Source: an uncultured Actinomycetes bacterium (GTDB lineage Bacteria; Actinomycetota; Acidimicrobiia; Acidimicrobiales; RAAP-2). From it: a stretch of 37,602 bases of DNA. Below the pieces are notes generated by a model. That model was not told the origin of the DNA and made no database searches. It saw only the letters and a program-made list of their open reading frames with translations. This document shows positions 23,284-31,379 of this stretch, one piece after another (positions within the stretch are counted from its first letter, which is position 1; each line of letters opens with the position of its first letter). The position numbers and the translations under genes are program-made. Where the stretch lies: contig CAIXCS010000169.1 of NCBI GenBank assembly GCA_903918025.1, forward strand, positions 1 to 37,602, given 5' to 3'.

Positions 23284-23294
23284 GCGTCACGCCT
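23273..23294. terminator. Candidate bidirectional terminator between convergent genes
   Basis: CGCCT-cgct-AGGCG and AGGCG-tca-CGCCT share the middle arm, giving two alternative 5-bp hairpins. They span the stop codons of the secreted protein (plus) and lhr (minus), which are only three bases apart. The stems are short and there is no T-run. Confidence 0.35.
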
Positions 23295-26200
23295 CCGCAG
23301 GTTGTTCAACCACCAACCCGGCTCGCAAGGTGACGGACCGGTTGCGCTGAGCTGGAACTCTCGGTCCAGGGAGAAGATAGCCCGTCACATTGAGCGGATC
23401 AGAGCCGGAGACGGTGACCTCGACGGAAGGAGATGCTCCAGCTCGACTGAGCAGGGCTGCAACCTCGTGTCGCGCGAACTGCTCTCCGGCAATTCCCGCA
23501 ACGAAGCGCCCACCAGCAATGACTCCCTGAGCTTCGAATCGCCGAAGGGCTCTCGCGACATCTCGCCACGGCACCGTGAAGGATTCCCTTCCAAAGTGGT
23601 CAAAGGTGACAACGCCCCACCGGTCGAGCATCTGCGCAGCGATGTGATCAGCAAGCTCTTCAGTGGCGACAACATCAGTTCGAGCAGAGGTTGATTGCGC
23701 GACCAACGACCACCGTCCCTCACCACTGGTGGTTGCAGCAGCTCCTCGGTGGGTCCCAAGGCGTCCAGCCGGACCCCGTCGCATTCGGGTGTTACCTCCT
23801 CGACCACCACGGAGGAGTGTCCGCACGGCTCCGAATGCATCGGCATGGACAAGACCTCGAGCAACGAGCTCCCAGAGTCCCTGATCAACCTCGCTCGCAA
23901 GACGGCCGACCATTGCCGGAAGGTCAGCACGGAAGGTCGCCCCACGCACGGCGAGGAGGTCGTAGAGCTCGGCGGCGGCCCCTGCCGTCGGGGGAACAGG
24001 ATCTTCGCCCCTGCGGACCGCTTCAAGGAGGAAGGGAAGGTCTTCTCGGAGACAGAGTGCGAGAGGAGTCGATGCCGAGGGGTGTGCCGTTCCCCGACGC
24101 GACCCGCCATCATCTTGACGAGGCGTCAACCGGACCCACGTGACCATCCCCGAAAGGCAGAGTTCGTCCAGCCATCCGGGCTGATAGTCAACAACACGGG
24201 CTGGGAGAATATGCCGTTCCCAGTCTCCCGCTGCAAGTTCCAGCCCTTGGAGCTGCTCAACCACAGCGAGAACGCCTTGCCGTCCATGAAGTTGTGATCC
24301 GAGACCCACATGCTGCAGTTGGCGAAGCGCTTCAACGTAGGTGGAAATTGGCACCGCCTCGACTCGCCGCCGCCGATTAGAACGACTGGCCGCGTAGAGG
24401 CGAGTGAGAAGGTGGCGGGCACACCAACGACCGTCGGGCAGTTCAATGGCAAGTCCGACGCTCTCCAAGCGCCGAAGAGCAGTCGCAGCTCGTAGTTCAC
24501 TCAGCGGGGCACCGTTGAGAAGACCGGGCCCGAATGGTTCATCCCGGGTCAATACAGCCAGCAGGACTGGCCCAGCACGCTCCAAGTGACCTCGTAGGCA
24601 CTCTGCGGCAAGTTCATCATCCTCGCCAATGGACCGAAAACGATCGCTCAAGCTCGTCACCACCCACGTGCCATCGACCTCGAGAAGCCGACCTTGGTCC
24701 ACGAGTTCCTGCGCATAGGTCCGCCATGGATCGACGGCACGAATTGCCACGAGATCCTCGACGAGATCGCAGAGTTCGTCGGCGCTTCGAACCCGAGGGG
24801 CCAATTGTTCGAGCATGGTCGCAACCGCTCCGGGATCGAGCTCGACGGAACCGCCAGCTGCCACATTGGCAAGTTCGGGAAGACCACGATCGAGCGGTAC
24901 CGCTCGGGCCCGTCGTTCTTCCAGCGGGGCGTCATCAAGAAAGGTGTAGGGCTGCCCAGTCAAGATGCCATGAGCGAGGGGCGATGGAGTGGCCGACTCC
25001 ACGAAGGACACGGTGATGGAGCCATCTTCGAGAGCCCGCAGGAGGTTGACCAGCCCTTCGCCATCCATGGGCTCAAACAACGTGTCCGCAATGGTTTGAC
25101 GGACGAGGAGATGGTCGGGGATTGGGATGGGGCCGGGTGGGGCATTCTCTTGACACGCAGCCAACGAAGGCCACGTTGCTGCGAGGAGATCTTCAGATTC
25201 CATTCGCTGAAGATGAATTGGTCGCCGGCCGCCAGACGTTGTGCGGGGCACGACAAGCGCTCGATTGAGGTTCCACCTCCAACGTGCCTGCAGCATTGGA
25301 TGAGGAAGGACCGCCTGCGTGAGGACCGAAATGGCCTGTTCCGAACGAACCATGTGTGGGACCTGAGTGAGGGGGAAGCTGTGGTGTGGCCCAAGGGAAA
25401 TGATCACGGTGTTGTCATCAGCCGCAGCCTGGAGTTCGAAGTCAAAGGTCACGCAGAATCGTTTGCGGAGTGCGAGACCAAGTGCTCGGTTGATTCGTCC
25501 TCCATGCGGCGAGTGAACAACAAGCTGCGAACCCTCTGCATCATCAAAGAAACGCTCGACTACCAGATGCGTTGACGTGGGCAACTGGCCAAGTGCGGCA
25601 AATGCCGCAGCCAAGTAGGTAGCGACCTGCAGTGCAGCGGGCGCGGAGACACCGGAAAACTCAACGATTGCTGCAGGTAGGTCCTCTGCGCGGCAATCGC
25701 GAAGAAACTCCTCACCGAGCGAACGCAACGTTCCCACCCAGTTCGAGAGTTCAGCAGTACGTGCAGGTGCCTCACCCAACCAGAACGGAACAGACGGCTT
25801 TGCTCCTTGCGCGTCAACGACGCGGACAACACTCGTCTCGACTTTCGACACTCTCCAGGATTGCGTCCCCAGGAGGAACACATCTCCTGGAGCGGAGTCA
25901 ATGGCAAAGTCCTCATTGACCTGACCAATCGTGATGCCTTCAGGATCGAGCACCACCCGGTAGTCACCGGTTTCGGGAATTGCGCCACCGTTGAGCAGTG
26001 CGGTGAGTCGGGCTCCTTTTGCTGGTCGAACGAGTCCATTCACTCGATCAAGGTGCAGGTGCGCTCCACGACGTCCCCGCCCCGTCAAGATTCCTCTCGC
26101 GGCCAGTTCGAGCACTTCATCAAAGTCATCAATCGACAAGGTCTGGAATGGCGCAGCATGACGGAGCAGTTCGTAGAGCTCGGTAAGTGAGCACTCCTCC

Positions 26201-27606
26201 GCCGCGGCAACCTCTGCAACCAGTTGTTGCATTGCGATGTCGAGCGGAGCTACAGGGGGGTGAAGAAGATCAAGGTCTCCGGCTGCGACCGCAGCCAGCA
26301 GCGCCGTGCATTCAACCAGTTCATCGCGATTAAACGGATAGAGCCGACCTGCTGGTGTCCCACCGACATGGTGATTTGCCCGACCAACACGCTGCAAGAA
26401 CGTGGCGATTGAACGAGGTGAACCAAGTTGGCAAACCAATTCAACTGGGCCAACATCAATACCGAGCTCAAGCGAAGCAGTTGCAACGAGAGCACGGAGG
26501 TCTCCGGAACGGAGCCTCGCCTCAACCAATCGTCGGCGCGCCGTCGACAGGCTTCCGTGATGTGCAGCAACCTTCAGATGGGTGTCATCGGAGTCCTCGG
26601 GATCTTCACCGAGACGCTCCGCCAATTGGTGGGCAACCCGCTCAGCCATCTTCCTCGTATTGACGAAAATGAGGGTCGTTCGATGCTCAGCGACGCGCGC
26701 CGCAATGTCGTCCAACATCTCGGTGAACTGTGCAGTACTCCCTACGGCCTCGAGATCCATCGAGGGCAACGCCACCTCGACTTCAAGACCCTTTCGGTGA
26801 CCACAGTCGATGATTCTTGGCGGACGACGGTCTTGCCCTACGCCAGAGAGCAGCTCACCCACAACTGAAAGTGGTCGCTGCGTAGCGGAGAGTCCTATGC
26901 GCTGAAGTCGATGACCTCGACCAGCAACAAGCGAGGTCAGACGCTCGACGGTGACGGCAAGGTGGGCACCGCGCTTATCTCTTGCAAGCGTGTGAATCTC
27001 ATCGATGATGATGGTCTCAACGTTCGAGAGTGCCGCCCGCCCCTTTGGCGACGTGAGGAGCAAGTACAGCGACTCAGGTGTCGTGACGAGGAGATCTGGA
27101 GGGGTCTTCACCAAGGCAGCTCGCTCTGCTTGGCTCGAATCACCAGTTCTGATTCCGACGGAAATGCTTGGGCCAACAACCCCTTTCGACGTTGCGAGCG
27201 CCGTCAGTTCCTCAAGAGGATGCAAGAGGTTCTCTCGAACATCGGCAGTCAGGGCCTTGAGCGGCGAGACGTAGACGACCTTGGTCGTCGACGGCACATA
27301 GTCGCCTCGGTCGAAGGCCTTCCAGAGCGCATCAATCCCAACCAAGAAGCCCGTGAGCGTCTTACCCGTACCGGTTGGCGACGCGACTAAGACATCATCT
27401 CCAGTTTGAATCTCCGGCCATGCAGCCAGTTGCGGTGAAGTTGGACCATTGGGAAAGCGCCCCATGAACCACTCCGCAACGATTGGGTGGAAGGACGTCA
27501 GTTCCCCGATCACTCCGCCTTCGCCCGAAAGGAAGAGGGATGGTTGACGTGATCCAAGTTCCACCTGCGAAGTCTCCTCCGTCGGTGTGACAACTTCGTC
27601 GTTCAC
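23287..27606 (-). CDS. lhr: Lhr-type large ATP-dependent DNA helicase
   Basis: A 1439-residue SF2 helicase, typical Lhr length. The motor domains occupy residues 40-450: Q-motif PTSPQLAAWPEIQTG (55-69), Walker A SPTGTGKT (76-83), DEIH (202-205), SAT (240-242), ATASLELGID (375-384) and QRVGRAN (405-411). The Lhr-core winged-helix and beta-barrel regions and a long C-terminal domain follow. Lhr translocates 3'-5' on single-stranded DNA and unwinds RNA:DNA hybrids; in mycobacteria it is DNA-damage induced, and the E. coli C-terminal domain has uracil-DNA glycosylase activity. The start is GTG, overlapping the stop of a small upstream gene by four bases (GTGA), so translation is likely coupled. 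I see no LexA box near it. Confidence 0.94.
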   Translation of the reverse strand: MNDEVVTPTEETSQVELGSRQPSLFLSGEGGVIGELTSFHPIVAEWFMGRFPNGPTSPQLAAWPEIQTGDDVLVASPTGTGKTLTGFLVGIDALWKAFDRGDYVPSTTKVVYVSPLKALTADVRENLLHPLEELTALATSKGVVGPSISVGIRTGDSSQAERAALVKTPPDLLVTTPESLYLLLTSPKGRAALSNVETIIIDEIHTLARDKRGAHLAVTVERLTSLVAGRGHRLQRIGLSATQRPLSVVGELLSGVGQDRRPPRIIDCGHRKGLEVEVALPSMDLEAVGSTAQFTEMLDDIAARVAEHRTTLIFVNTRKMAERVAHQLAERLGEDPEDSDDTHLKVAAHHGSLSTARRRLVEARLRSGDLRALVATASLELGIDVGPVELVCQLGSPRSIATFLQRVGRANHHVGGTPAGRLYPFNRDELVECTALLAAVAAGDLDLLHPPVAPLDIAMQQLVAEVAAAEECSLTELYELLRHAAPFQTLSIDDFDEVLELAARGILTGRGRRGAHLHLDRVNGLVRPAKGARLTALLNGGAIPETGDYRVVLDPEGITIGQVNEDFAIDSAPGDVFLLGTQSWRVSKVETSVVRVVDAQGAKPSVPFWLGEAPARTAELSNWVGTLRSLGEEFLRDCRAEDLPAAIVEFSGVSAPAALQVATYLAAAFAALGQLPTSTHLVVERFFDDAEGSQLVVHSPHGGRINRALGLALRKRFCVTFDFELQAAADDNTVIISLGPHHSFPLTQVPHMVRSEQAISVLTQAVLPHPMLQARWRWNLNRALVVPRTTSGGRRPIHLQRMESEDLLAATWPSLAACQENAPPGPIPIPDHLLVRQTIADTLFEPMDGEGLVNLLRALEDGSITVSFVESATPSPLAHGILTGQPYTFLDDAPLEERRARAVPLDRGLPELANVAAGGSVELDPGAVATMLEQLAPRVRSADELCDLVEDLVAIRAVDPWRTYAQELVDQGRLLEVDGTWVVTSLSDRFRSIGEDDELAAECLRGHLERAGPVLLAVLTRDEPFGPGLLNGAPLSELRAATALRRLESVGLAIELPDGRWCARHLLTRLYAASRSNRRRRVEAVPISTYVEALRQLQHVGLGSQLHGRQGVLAVVEQLQGLELAAGDWERHILPARVVDYQPGWLDELCLSGMVTWVRLTPRQDDGGSRRGTAHPSASTPLALCLREDLPFLLEAVRRGEDPVPPTAGAAAELYDLLAVRGATFRADLPAMVGRLASEVDQGLWELVARGLVHADAFGAVRTLLRGGRGGNTRMRRGPAGRLGTHRGAAATTSGEGRWSLVAQSTSARTDVVATEELADHIAAQMLDRWGVVTFDHFGRESFTVPWRDVARALRRFEAQGVIAGGRFVAGIAGEQFARHEVAALLSRAGASPSVEVTVSGSDPLNVTGYLLPGPRVPAQRNRSVTLRAGLVVEQPAEA

Positions 27607-27776
27607 TCCTCGTCATCCGCCGCTGTTCGACGTGCATCAAAAGCGGCCTTGTCTGCCTTGCCTCGAGCCACGATGAACCGGATCGTGAGAACAAGCAGGA
27701 CGATCGTCAGCAGCACGAAAATCGAGAACACGATCACAAATGCGGTGTTGCCGCTAGCGAGCAGGCTCGAGGTCAT
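27603..27776 (-). CDS. 57-residue single-pass membrane protein coupled to lhr
   Basis: From the ATG at 27776 the frame encodes 57 residues: a short polar N-terminus (MTSSLLASGN), one strongly hydrophobic span (about residues 11-35, FVIVFSIFVLLTIVLLVLTI), then a charged tail rich in Arg, Lys, Ala and ending DDEE. It resembles small single-span actinobacterial membrane proteins but I recognise no named family. Support for it being real: a TAGCCT -10 exactly six bases before the ATG, and a GTGA overlap with the lhr start. It could be a small membrane subunit or simply a leader cistron for lhr translation. Confidence 0.7.
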   Translation of the reverse strand: MTSSLLASGNTAFVIVFSIFVLLTIVLLVLTIRFIVARGKADKAAFDARRTAADDEE

Positions 27777-27782
27777 GAACTC

Positions 27783-27788
27783 AGGCTA
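27783..27788 (-). promoter_or_regulatory. Candidate -10 (TAGCCT), leaderless start of the small gene-lhr unit
   Basis: TAGCCT, six bases (GAGTTC), then the ATG at 27776 on the minus strand. It lies in a 53-base divergent region shared with the plus-strand unit upstream of typA. Confidence 0.5.
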
Positions 27789-27829: not shown

Positions 27830-28666
27830 ATGCTCCTCGTCGAAAATTCTGTTCACCGCAAGACCACTTCACAGGCATTCGTTCCACTTTCAGGGGCTGC
27901 ACTTCTGAGCGAACTCCGTGGTTCAACGACCTTAAGGAACCACACGGACCTTGGACTCGCTGGTGGACTTCGCTCGTGGCTTGAAGATGCTTGTCACGAA
28001 CTCCTGCCTGACAACGCTCCACTGCAAGTCATCACGAAGGCATCAATTGTTCGATCACACCTTCCAATCGAACGAGAGGGAGTCCTGACCTTCGAATTCC
28101 TCAGAGGTGTTCTTGTTTCGTCGGTCTTTCGTCTTCACCTTCAACTTGGGCCGAGCGACACGCCGTTTCTCGATGCGATGAGCGCACTTGAAGCTGATGT
28201 ACGCCAGGGTGGAATCGTTGCGGCGATTCGTGCACTTTCCCCTGGGGATCTCGCCGACCTTCAGCGAGATGTTCACCTTCACGCCAAGAACTTTGGCGAC
28301 CGATGGCCACTGCTTCAGGCTGCATGGCTACCGAGGACCGGTATTGGCATGTCAGTTCCTCTGGCAGGAGGACGTGTTGTTCTCCGCGGCTGGGCTGACG
28401 TCATGATTGGTGCCCCGCGTCACGATGTTGCCTCGGTTTGTCTTGTCTCCATCCGATCGACACCGCTCCATCCTCTCCAGCGCGAGGAACTGCACTTCAC
28501 GGCGCTCGTCGAAACACTCAGAAGTGGCATTCCTCCATTCCGTTTGGCTTCGTACTCCACGCTCACCGGAGAAATCGCAGCGGAGCCGGTCACAGATGAA
28601 CTCCTTAAAGGAGCAGTCCACAAGACCATCGCAGCACTCAAGCACCTTGGGAGCGCAACGAAGTGA
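27830..28666 (+). CDS. Uncharacterised protein, possible degenerate PD-(D/E)XK fold (first of pair)
   Basis: A 278-residue cytoplasmic protein; I do not recognise a named family. The C-terminal half has the layout of a PD-(D/E)XK nuclease-like domain: RGWADVMIG (D190), then a strand SVCLVSIRS (202-210) where an active enzyme would have E/D-x-K (here S207 and R209), then LHFTALVETLRSGIPPFRLASYSTLTGEI and a terminal helix. If that reading is right the catalytic acid and lysine are lost, suggesting a structural or binding role. Its stop overlaps the GTG of the next gene (GTGA), and the two proteins share this C-terminal layout. The fold assignment is an inference. Confidence 0.7.
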   Translation: MLLVENSVHRKTTSQAFVPLSGAALLSELRGSTTLRNHTDLGLAGGLRSWLEDACHELLPDNAPLQVITKASIVRSHLPIEREGVLTFEFLRGVLVSSVFRLHLQLGPSDTPFLDAMSALEADVRQGGIVAAIRALSPGDLADLQRDVHLHAKNFGDRWPLLQAAWLPRTGIGMSVPLAGGRVVLRGWADVMIGAPRHDVASVCLVSIRSTPLHPLQREELHFTALVETLRSGIPPFRLASYSTLTGEIAAEPVTDELLKGAVHKTIAALKHLGSATK

Positions 28667-29505
28667 CCCGTCCACTCCACCGCATCAAACCATCGGAGCT
28701 CACGAATGCTCTCGCCGCTCCGGCGACCGCCTCGGTCAACATTGATCGCACGCTGCACACTGGTTTGCTCAAGATTCTTGGTAATGCAGCGGGAAGCCCT
28801 GAGAAGGGGCTGCAGCGAATCGATGCCTTCACCTTGACGCATGGCTTTAGCGATGACTCGACAAAATTTGCCTGGACACCACAACTCACGAAGCGAACCC
28901 TTGGACTCTCGGCAGTCCGTTCCTGTGTTTGGGGACTCGCGAAGACACCAGCTGAGGCTGTCGCGCTGGAAGTTGCTCGATTCGACCGGAGGGCCGCCGA
29001 TGGTCGAGAACAAACCGGATCGCTCGCCATGTACTTCGCCAACGCTCCTCGAGGAGTCAGGGGAACGGCGATGGCACTTGCCACGACCTACGCGACCGAA
29101 TTGTGGTGCGGACTTGATTGGAACGGCTTTCCCCTGCATCCAACGATTGGCGCCCAAGATGATGTCTACCCCCTGCGGTCTGCCGGCCTCCTCCTCCGAG
29201 GTAGGGCCGACGTCAAGGCACAGGTCGCTGTCGCCCAAGAGAGCAGGACGGCTGAGGCCAGACTGCTGATCCTCCCGGGATCAATCAGCCAAAGCACCGC
29301 ACTCGTCCTGGGATCCTCTGCTCTTGCAGCGGTGCTTTCTGCCGATGGCGGCTTGGCGCCGGTCCGAGTCGTTGGTTGGTATCCCTCTTCTGGCCAAGCG
29401 GTCGTCCTCCCGATTGACCGCTCAATCCTCACTCGTGCCGCTCTCGGGATCGTCCGAAGGACCCTCTCGGAGGCCTCGACTTCCCTTTCAGCACAGGTTG
29501 CCTGA
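28663..29505 (+). CDS. Uncharacterised protein, paralogue-like partner of the preceding gene
   Basis: A 280-residue protein with no named family recognised. The N-terminal half includes WTPQLTKRTLGLSAVRSCVWG and a TPAEAVALEVARF helix, a pattern I associate with uncharacterised actinobacterial proteins. The C-terminal part parallels the preceding protein: LRGRADV (D183), a strand RLLILPGS where a catalytic E-x-K would sit, an ALAAVLSADGG helix, PVRVVGWYPSSGQ, and a final helix ending RRTL. The catalytic positions look lost. The GTG start overlaps the previous stop, so the two are coupled and may form a heterodimer. It is followed 47 bases later by typA. Confidence 0.7.
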   Translation: MTRPLHRIKPSELTNALAAPATASVNIDRTLHTGLLKILGNAAGSPEKGLQRIDAFTLTHGFSDDSTKFAWTPQLTKRTLGLSAVRSCVWGLAKTPAEAVALEVARFDRRAADGREQTGSLAMYFANAPRGVRGTAMALATTYATELWCGLDWNGFPLHPTIGAQDDVYPLRSAGLLLRGRADVKAQVAVAQESRTAEARLLILPGSISQSTALVLGSSALAAVLSADGGLAPVRVVGWYPSSGQAVVLPIDRSILTRAALGIVRRTLSEASTSLSAQVA

Positions 29506-29552: not shown

Positions 29553-31379
29553 ATGGAACGCCGCTCAGAGATTCGTAATGTCGCCATTGTCGCCCACGTC
29601 GACCATGGCAAGACCACCCTCGTGGACAAGATGCTGTGGGAGACCGGTGCATTCCGGGCGAACGCGGACATTGCCGACCGCGTCATGGATTCAGGTGATC
29701 TCGAACGCGAAAAGGGCATCACGATCCTCGCCAAGAACACGGCGATTCAGTACCGAGACACGAAAATCAACATCATCGACACGCCAGGTCACGCTGACTT
29801 CGGCGGCGAGGTTGAGCGTGGACTCACGATGGTCGACGGCGTCCTTCTTCTCGTGGACGCCTCAGAAGGTCCACTCCCACAGACCCGCTTCGTTCTCCGA
29901 AAGGCTCTTGAGGCGCGGCTTCCTGTCATCCTCGTGATCAACAAGGTCGACCGCCCTGACGCTCGAATTGCAGAGGTCGTCAACGAAGTCGAAGAACTCT
30001 TCCTTGATCTTGATGCCGATGAAGACCAGATCGACTTCCCAATTCTCTATGCGTGCGCGCGCGATGGCTGGGCTGCCACGGCCGAAGGGGTCGTCGGAAC
30101 CGACCTCTCCCCCCTATTCGACACCATTTTGGAGCGCATTCCTGCCCCTGAATACGAAGAGGGACATGGTCTCCAGGCCCTCGTTTGCAACCTCGATGCC
30201 TCTGCCTACGTTGGTCGGCTTGCCATTTGCCGCGTGCACAATGGCTACCTCCGCAAGGGAGAGTCAGTTTCGTGGTGCAAGCTCGATGGGACGATTGAGC
30301 GAGCCCGCATTACCGAGCTCTACGTCACCAATGCACTCGACCGAGTGGACGTGACTGAAGTTGGACCCGGAGAAATCGTTGCGGTTGCAGGATTTCCTGA
30401 GATCACCATTGGTGAGACCCTGGCCGAACTGGAAAACCCAGTCGCTCTCCCACCAATCACTGTTGACGAGCCGTCGCTCGGCATGACCATCGGCATCAAC
30501 ACAAGTCCACTTGCCGGGCAAGATGGCACGAAGTTGACCGCTCGATTCCTTCGGAACCGACTCGACCAAGAACTCATTGGCAATGTCTCGATCCGCGTGC
30601 TTCCAACCGATCGGCCTGACACCTGGGAAGTCCAGGGTCGAGGAGAGCTCCAGTTGGCAGTTCTCGTTGAAATGATGCGCCGTGAGGGATTTGAACTCAC
30701 CGTTGGCAAGCCCCAGGTCGTGACTCGCGAGATTGACGGCGTCAAGAATGAGCCAATTGAGCGGGTCTCCGTTGATGTTCCCGAGGACTACATGGGCGTC
30801 GTGACCCAACTGCTTGCACTGCGCAAGGGAACCATGCTTGAAATGGTCAACCACGGCACTGGCTGGGTTCGACTGGATTACAAGGTTCCAGCTCGAGGCC
30901 TCGTCGGGTTCCGAACGGAATTCATGACCGAAACTCGAGGAACGGGAATTCTCCACCACGTGTTTGATGGTTGGGCACCTTGGCTCGGCGAACTCAAGCT
31001 TCGTCGAAACGGTTCAATGGTGGCCGACCGCCGTGGAGCGACGACCAACTTCGCCCTCATTGGCCTGCAGGAGCGCGGCACGCTCTTCGTTGGTCCAACC
31101 ATTGAGACCTACGAAGGAATGATCGTTGGAGAGAACGCTCGCACCGAGGAAATGGATGTCAATCCAACCAAGGAGAAGCAACTCACCAATATGCGTTCCG
31201 CTGCAGCGGACAACTTTGAACGACTGACGCCAGCAACACTGTTGTCACTTGAACAAGCGCTCGAGTTCATCGCTGATGACGAGTGCGTTGAAGTCACGCC
31301 AAAGACTGTGCGTCTCCGCAAGGTGATTTTGGACCAAAACATTCGCGGTCGAATGCGAAAGTCCTCCAAGAACTCGTAA
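29553..31379 (+). CDS. typA: Ribosome-associated GTPase TypA/BipA
   Basis: A 608-residue translational GTPase, full family length. G-domain motifs are G1 AHVDHGKTT (14-22), G2 in [15 protein letters not shown]3 DTPGHADF and G4 NKVDRP. The EF-G-like domains and the TypA-specific C-terminal domain follow ([25 protein letters not shown], then [13 protein letters not shown]). BipA binds the 70S ribosome and supports 50S assembly and growth under stress or cold. The ATG at 29553 begins the conserved [20 protein letters not shown]. It is followed by tRNA-Ser(TGA). Confidence 0.96.

Follow-up and report, generated by a model that had tools for sequence, protein, structure and literature searches.

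ACE1, an Argonaute-associated protein of the Cas4 family (9iab, 9iac), Dna2, AdnA and AddAB are catalytic nucleases or nuclease-helicases, and they were the best structural neighbours of the two proteins described here. In RecBCD, the nuclease-like domain of RecC is inactive. XPF-ERCC1 and MUS81-EME1 are heterodimers in which an active subunit is joined by an inactive paralogue.

Cas4 proteins carry one N-terminal and three C-terminal cysteines, according to a Cas4 study (PMC4176176), and we found the same arrangement in solo orthologues of the first of our proteins. The same study reports, for two Cas4 proteins, that mutants of the matching Asp, Glu, Lys or Tyr were nearly inactive, that the H80A mutant of SSO1391 was inactive, and that cysteine mutants lost the cluster and kept activity (PMC4176176). 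The loss of cysteines alone is therefore no argument for inactivity, while the combined loss of D/E-x-K and Tyr is one. In fungi, nucleases of the RNase II family are described as having turned repeatedly into pseudonucleases that bind nucleic acid; these differ from our proteins in having an unrelated fold, in being eukaryotic and in binding RNA (PMC8097288). In M. tuberculosis, Rv2119 is a RecB-like exonuclease (entered under the RecB family in PMC2587704) whose overexpression following mitomycin C treatment was reported for a recA mutant (PMC8151990). This ties actinobacterial RecB-like exonucleases to DNA damage.

Gene pair and predicted fold

The window, that is, the whole stretch of 37,602 nucleotides that was analysed, holds two small coupled genes, A and B, with the following features.

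27830-28666, plus strand: gene A, 278 aa, ATG start, stop codon included; degenerate protein of predicted PD-(D/E)XK RecB/Cas4-like type
28663-29505, plus strand: gene B, 280 aa, GTG start, stop codon included; degenerate paralogue of A
28663-28666, plus strand: GTGA, in which the stop of A overlaps the start of B, probable translational coupling
28385-28402, plus strand: RGWADV of A, residues 186-191 (GxxD strand), with Asp190
28448-28456, plus strand: S-I-R of A, residues 207-209, at the D-x-K place
29197-29214, plus strand: RGRADV of B, residues 179-184 (GxxD strand), with Asp183
29263-29283, plus strand: LLILPGS of B, residues 201-207, at the place of the D-x-K strand
23287-27606, minus strand: lhr, divergent, upstream of A
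29553-31379, plus strand: typA, downstream of B

The original prediction, made from the sequence alone, had described this overlapping pair upstream of typA and divergent from lhr, and the window annotation agrees with it. The RGxADV motif that it read in both proteins is exact. The motif AL-x3-L-x3-G, also claimed for both, is present in B but not in A, which reads AL-x3-L-x2-G. The pattern P-x-R-x5-Y-x3-G fits neither protein, A having P-x-R-x3-Y-x4-G and B having P-x-R-x4-Y-x3-G. Among the 61 genomes searched, the window's own genome counted, orthologues of A were found in 53 and those of B in 37. No description of the pair was recognised among the papers listed in the open-access journal literature searched.

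The two proteins were folded singly with AlphaFold2 (pLDDT 93.7 and pTM 0.88 for A; 94.7 and 0.91 for B). Foldseek matched A to ACE1/Cas4-like proteins (2.1e-6) and Dna2 (2.5e-5), and also to Cas4 SSO0001, AddAB and AdnA. B matched the same proteins more weakly, with Dna2 as its best match (4.4e-3) and none at or below 0.001. In the VIA comparison, ACE1 aligned to A with a Z of 13.5 over 193 residues and to B with a Z of 10.2 over 198 residues; B also aligned to AdnA (9.7), Dna2 (9.1), AddB (8.6) and residues 827-1034 of RecC (1w36 chain F; 5.6). The templates common to A and B were aligned over a nearly equal span of each, and the two proteins thus resemble each other in predicted structure. 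Neither outcome named beforehand as refuting the proposal, an unrelated fold or two dissimilar proteins, was therefore seen. These models support the assignment of A and B to full-length PD-(D/E)XK proteins of the RecB/Cas4/Dna2 type, in keeping with the PD-(D/E)XK-like layout originally proposed.

A direct BLASTP comparison of A and B gave an E value of only 0.44, so the similarity spotted by eye was insufficient alone and profiles were needed. Three profile alignments were used: A1 (A from its own family, 20 rows), A2 (distant A orthologues, 16 rows) and A3 (B, 22 rows). By hhalign, A1 matched A2, the solo orthologues, at 7.1e-47, essentially at full length; A3 matched A2 at 7.8e-17 over 248 columns; and A1 matched A3 at 1.2e-12 over 250 columns, the latter two likewise close to full length and all of them in order. 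In a control run the real A3-A2 comparison gave 5.8e-20, against 0.3 and 0.36 when the profiles were reversed and 0.21 to 0.86 for ten profiles with shuffled columns. These comparisons show that A and B are paralogues. The duplication that had been claimed is thus backed by the profile alignments and by the trees described below, which give the pair one origin.

Neither A nor B of the window matched any Pfam family up to E 1, hence neither matched PF12705 (PDDEXK_1). Against NCBIfam, the best that the window proteins reached was 0.016 for NF047542 and 0.1 for NF007297, neither of them anywhere near its cut-off. PF12705 matched all 16 solo A orthologues, which come from other acidimicrobial families, 14 of the 49 proteins in the A set (window A and 48 relatives, including one solo protein, L162; this set was also used for the folding) and none of 46 B proteins. 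The profile matches to these PF12705-matching orthologues make both window proteins homologues of undoubted RecB/Cas4 members. When the solo profile was searched against PDB sequences, nothing was returned up to E 1. The identity of A and B with Druantia DruK was considered and rejected. Neither window protein matched the PADLOC DruK models up to E 0.01, and the only matches, which covered the shared nuclease core, came from solo and basal proteins, such as the solo protein L072 (8.6e-7).

The closest known family is the PF12705 group of RecB-family exonucleases, Cas4-like proteins with a four-Cys Fe-S cluster among them, which is like A and B in fold and motif order and from which they descend directly. 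Unlike its members, the window proteins match no Pfam model and are without the His, the Glu, D/E-x-K, the Tyr and the four cysteines. Compared with Dna2, AdnA and AddAB, no helicase domain is present in A or B. RecC recalls B in that its RecB-type nuclease domain is dead and sits next to one that is active, although the structural match is weak; moreover, RecC is large and helicase-like, whereas A and B are small and stand-alone, and both appear dead in the window.

Loss of catalytic residues and cysteines

In the solo orthologues of A, the site comprises, in the numbering of L072, C73, H98, E173, D192, D209-x-K211, Y226 and C293-C296-C302. The complete set, CHEDDKYCCC, was present in all 28 solo orthologues read, and the four cysteines are presumed to be ligands of an Fe-S cluster. 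At 26 of these 28 loci, the sequence goes on for 1 kb or more downstream, so that B could have shown there. B is also missing at L131, L133 and L160, but these loci end at a contig edge, and A is degenerate there.

At the ten solo positions the window A reads -SGDSRT---, and Asp190 is the sole ancestral catalytic residue that it keeps. The profile alignment to intact relatives places its Ser and Arg in the Asp and Lys columns of D-x-K, which agrees with the S-I-R that the original prediction had put at this position. Ser and Thr stand in the His and Tyr columns. The protein stops short of the C-terminal cysteine region, and its own cysteines are residues 55 and 204. The earlier reading that catalytic residues had been lost was thus right for E-x-K, but the lost set is larger, as it also takes in the His, the Glu, the Tyr and all four cysteines.

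In the window B, Asp183 is kept on the GxxD strand and the rest of the site is gone, with Leu and Ser in the His and Tyr columns. The four-cysteine set is missing, the only cysteines being residues 88 and 149. The LLILPGS strand, noted beforehand at the E-x-K position of the second protein, was found and was aligned by profile to the D-x-K place. All 30 aligned rows of B were without D/E-x-K, His and Tyr, and all 30 had Asp or Glu at the D192 position.

It had been proposed to check whether homologues of the first protein keep E-x-K. They do: D-x-K stands in 28/28 solo orthologues, and D/E-x-K, together with the Tyr, is kept in 16 of 52 non-duplicate A proteins that are paired with B. Among these 52, E173 was never kept, a His was aligned in the His column in five, and D192 (Asp190 of the window) was kept in 49. 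Ten basal paired A proteins (L078, L117, L118, L119, L121, L122, L124, L140, L152 and L153) read C-D-Q-D-[DE]-K-Y-C-C-[CS], with the last Cys missing in L152. Six others (L087, L090, L125, L126, L135 and L142) are without the cysteines and still have D/E, Lys and Tyr. In the window protein and its five nearest relatives (L081-L085), the acid column reads S, S, S, A, Q and S, the Lys column has Arg in four and Lys in two (L083 and L085), and Tyr, His, Glu and Cys are gone in all six. From the loss of D/E-x-K and Tyr we infer that the window pair is without catalysis.

Origin of the pair

Tandem A-B genes were also found beyond the window's family, in an order-wide search of 218 genomes (families f9, f18, f20, f23, f26, f74, f85, f89 and f91). 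In this wider group, D/E-x-K, the Tyr and the C-terminal cysteines of A were kept in all 15 rows read, which comprised 14 pairs and L193, where no B was found. The His column held Asp in most rows; L185, L187 and L194 have Gly, Leu or Glu in it, and L183 is cut short at this point. In B of the same group the catalytic residues were gone, and the three C-terminal cysteines were present in 12 of 14. As the wider pairs keep D/E-x-K and Tyr in A and have a dead B that mostly has the cysteines, the ancestral pair probably consisted of one active-looking and one dead Fe-S subunit. Such a combination of active and inactive paralogues resembles XPF-ERCC1 and MUS81-EME1. These belong, however, to a different nuclease branch, and the window pair is without a site in both subunits; the A-B heterodimer is itself our proposal.

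A quick tree of 82 rows recovered a B clade with a support of 100 and a paired-A clade with 98, and in it the basal A states branch beneath the derived ones. A wide quick tree of 83 rows gave 96 for A and 79 for B. A careful tree of 73 rows, from which ten rows were omitted, six of them flagged as long branches, gave 97/90 for A and 100/100 for B. With paired A in one clade and B in another, the trees support a single origin of the tandem pair.

Solo A was called in 107 of the 218 genomes by a match to A2 at E 2.7e-79 or better, with the residues read in part of the 107. A pair or fusion was read in 35 genomes, none of which is among the 107 when the two lists are compared by eye. Families f18, f23 and f74 hold both forms, in different genomes. 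We take this distribution to mean that the pair took the place of the solo enzyme, a reading to be held with caution as few independent events underlie it. Two genomes show further relatives. G317 has a pair (L209) together with a weaker solo-like copy (L191, on C192) that has an in-frame stop and an altered site, CGHGDRYCCC. L210 (G329, C37) is a lone relative that looks dead, as it has four cysteines but lacks D/E-x-K; its genome gave a strong solo match as well.

A and B are fused in one frame in six cases from two lineages. Two of them (L080 in G024 and L163 in G036) share a genus within the window's family and could go back to a single event, and the other four (L176-L179) come from four f85 genomes, L161 being the same contig as L178 by length and frame; all are from draft genome sequences. 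In a genus neighbouring that of L080 and L163, A and B are separate genes (L164 and L165). Of 52 pairs, 34 offer a stop-start overlap of the xTGA type, and three have TGATG. The natural fusions, the coupled starts and the co-inheritance of the genes suggest that A and B form a physical pair.

Possible role and surroundings of the pair

Between the window and G003, dN/dS was 0.12 for A and 0.14 for B, compared with 0.039 for lhr and 0.015 for typA. A and B are thus under purifying selection and functional, yet they evolve faster than their neighbours. The faster change is what dying, functionless remnants would show, as the identity to G003 is 81% for A and 78% for B against 93% for lhr and 98% for typA. 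Nevertheless, the low dN/dS values, the coupled order that has been kept, and reading frames free of stops in all 53 A and all 37 B matches from the 61 genomes make this so improbable that we rejected decaying pseudogenes. Within the PD-(D/E)XK superfamily active-site residues are able to migrate, and A might still be a nuclease in which the helix that follows supplies the acid, through E219 or E220 for example, and Arg209 takes the part of Lys. Asp190 is kept, and the survival of Lys in two of the six subclade proteins would fit. This explanation has nevertheless to accommodate the loss of His, Glu, the acid, Tyr and Cys in all six, and the Cas4 study in which single losses of Asp, Glu, Lys or Tyr nearly abolished activity (PMC4176176), so we hold it to be improbable.

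More credible, though still unlikely, is a pair that works off nucleic acid, the fold being kept as a protein-protein scaffold or regulator, for example of Lhr or of the genome's other RecB-family nuclease. The strongest conservation of A within its own family lies off the old active site, in the N-terminal LRG..R..D..LAGGLR.WL.D, in WLPRT and in ETLRSG-PPFR. Candidate partners are also at hand: lhr is a divergent neighbour across much of the window's family, and a further PF12705 protein, with DYKTG and CxxC-x6-C, is present in part in the genome. Against this, lhr was not found in the flanks fetched for intermediates and wider pairs and so is not a conserved partner, and Asp190 and the cleft strand remain in 49/52 B-paired A proteins. 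The predicted pI is 7.2 for A, nearly neutral, and 9.9 for B; since only B is basic, the nucleic-acid binding that we favour below is not obvious from charge.

We lean, with some confidence, towards an asymmetric pair that came from one duplication and is now a pseudonuclease heterodimer gripping the end or a branch of DNA or RNA. A and B would have arisen in acidimicrobial Actinobacteria when a RecB-family (PF12705) exonuclease of the Fe-S type was duplicated once. In basal pairs, A looks catalytic, with the Asp, D/E-x-K, Tyr and four cysteines kept and the metal-ligand His usually replaced by Asp, and B appears to be a dead partner that in the wider group still has the Cys cluster. The ancestral pair probably worked as other nuclease pairs of an active and an inactive subunit do, the DNA being positioned by B. 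Later, in the lineage of the window, the cysteines of B were lost before those of A, and these before the acid, Lys and Tyr of A, while the pair stayed intact, coupled and under purifying selection. The A-B pair of today is most likely a heterodimer that still holds a DNA (or RNA) end or branch in what remains of the old cleft. Of this account, the analysis establishes the shared ancestry, the fold, the losses and their succession on the tree, the selection and the fusions; the heterodimer, its binding and its lack of cleavage are inferred. That the held end is protected or passed to another nuclease is a guess, as are the kind of nucleic acid and the partners. A point against this history is that the exclusion between solo and pair, and the loss of His and Glu, reflect one clade and few independent events. 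For the fuller statement, that a wholly non-catalytic PD-(D/E)XK pair displaced the ancestral solo nuclease and then shed catalysis and both Fe-S clusters under selection, we see the chances as evenly balanced.

If true, the pair would be a pseudonuclease heterodimer of RecB/Cas4 type whose part in DNA metabolism is confined to binding or regulation. Pseudo-enzymes are usually visible at their end point only. Here the solo enzyme, a pair of active-looking and dead subunits, an Fe-S-free pair and a fully dead-looking pair all survive in living relatives, and together with the fusions they allow a direct test of why a nuclease fold persists without cutting. They can also show which goes first, the Fe-S cluster or catalysis. 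In addition, a conserved pair that has no usable Pfam or NCBIfam match in the window can now be described through its homology.

The neighbouring genes lhr and typA were considered as components of the system and rejected, as neither was found in the flanks fetched for intermediates and wider pairs. Their adjacency is only synteny within one family, outside the A-B system. Elsewhere in the window's genome (G000), pieces of another PF12705 protein lie at two contig ends, C160:6928-7242 (L174) and C8:153-389 (L173). The C160 piece has the two motifs mentioned above, so that one or more RecB-family nucleases of intact appearance are kept in part by this genome.

Between A and lhr lies a small ORF (27603-27785, minus strand, about 57 aa) with one apparent transmembrane segment; it is divergent from A, and its end overlaps the lhr start. 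A profile of this ORF found matches upstream of paired A in at most 60 loci, an upper bound since the profile drifted into the neighbouring gene, and in none of the 28 solo loci. In many relatives (L164, L165, L168, L125 and others), the small membrane ORF is followed on the minus strand by a gene with AFVLAGGGSRGAVQVGM, which we take to be patatin-like, and in some of them the two are in the same frame. The gap between lhr and A is longer in relatives with this gene, and in the window lhr adjoins the small ORF.
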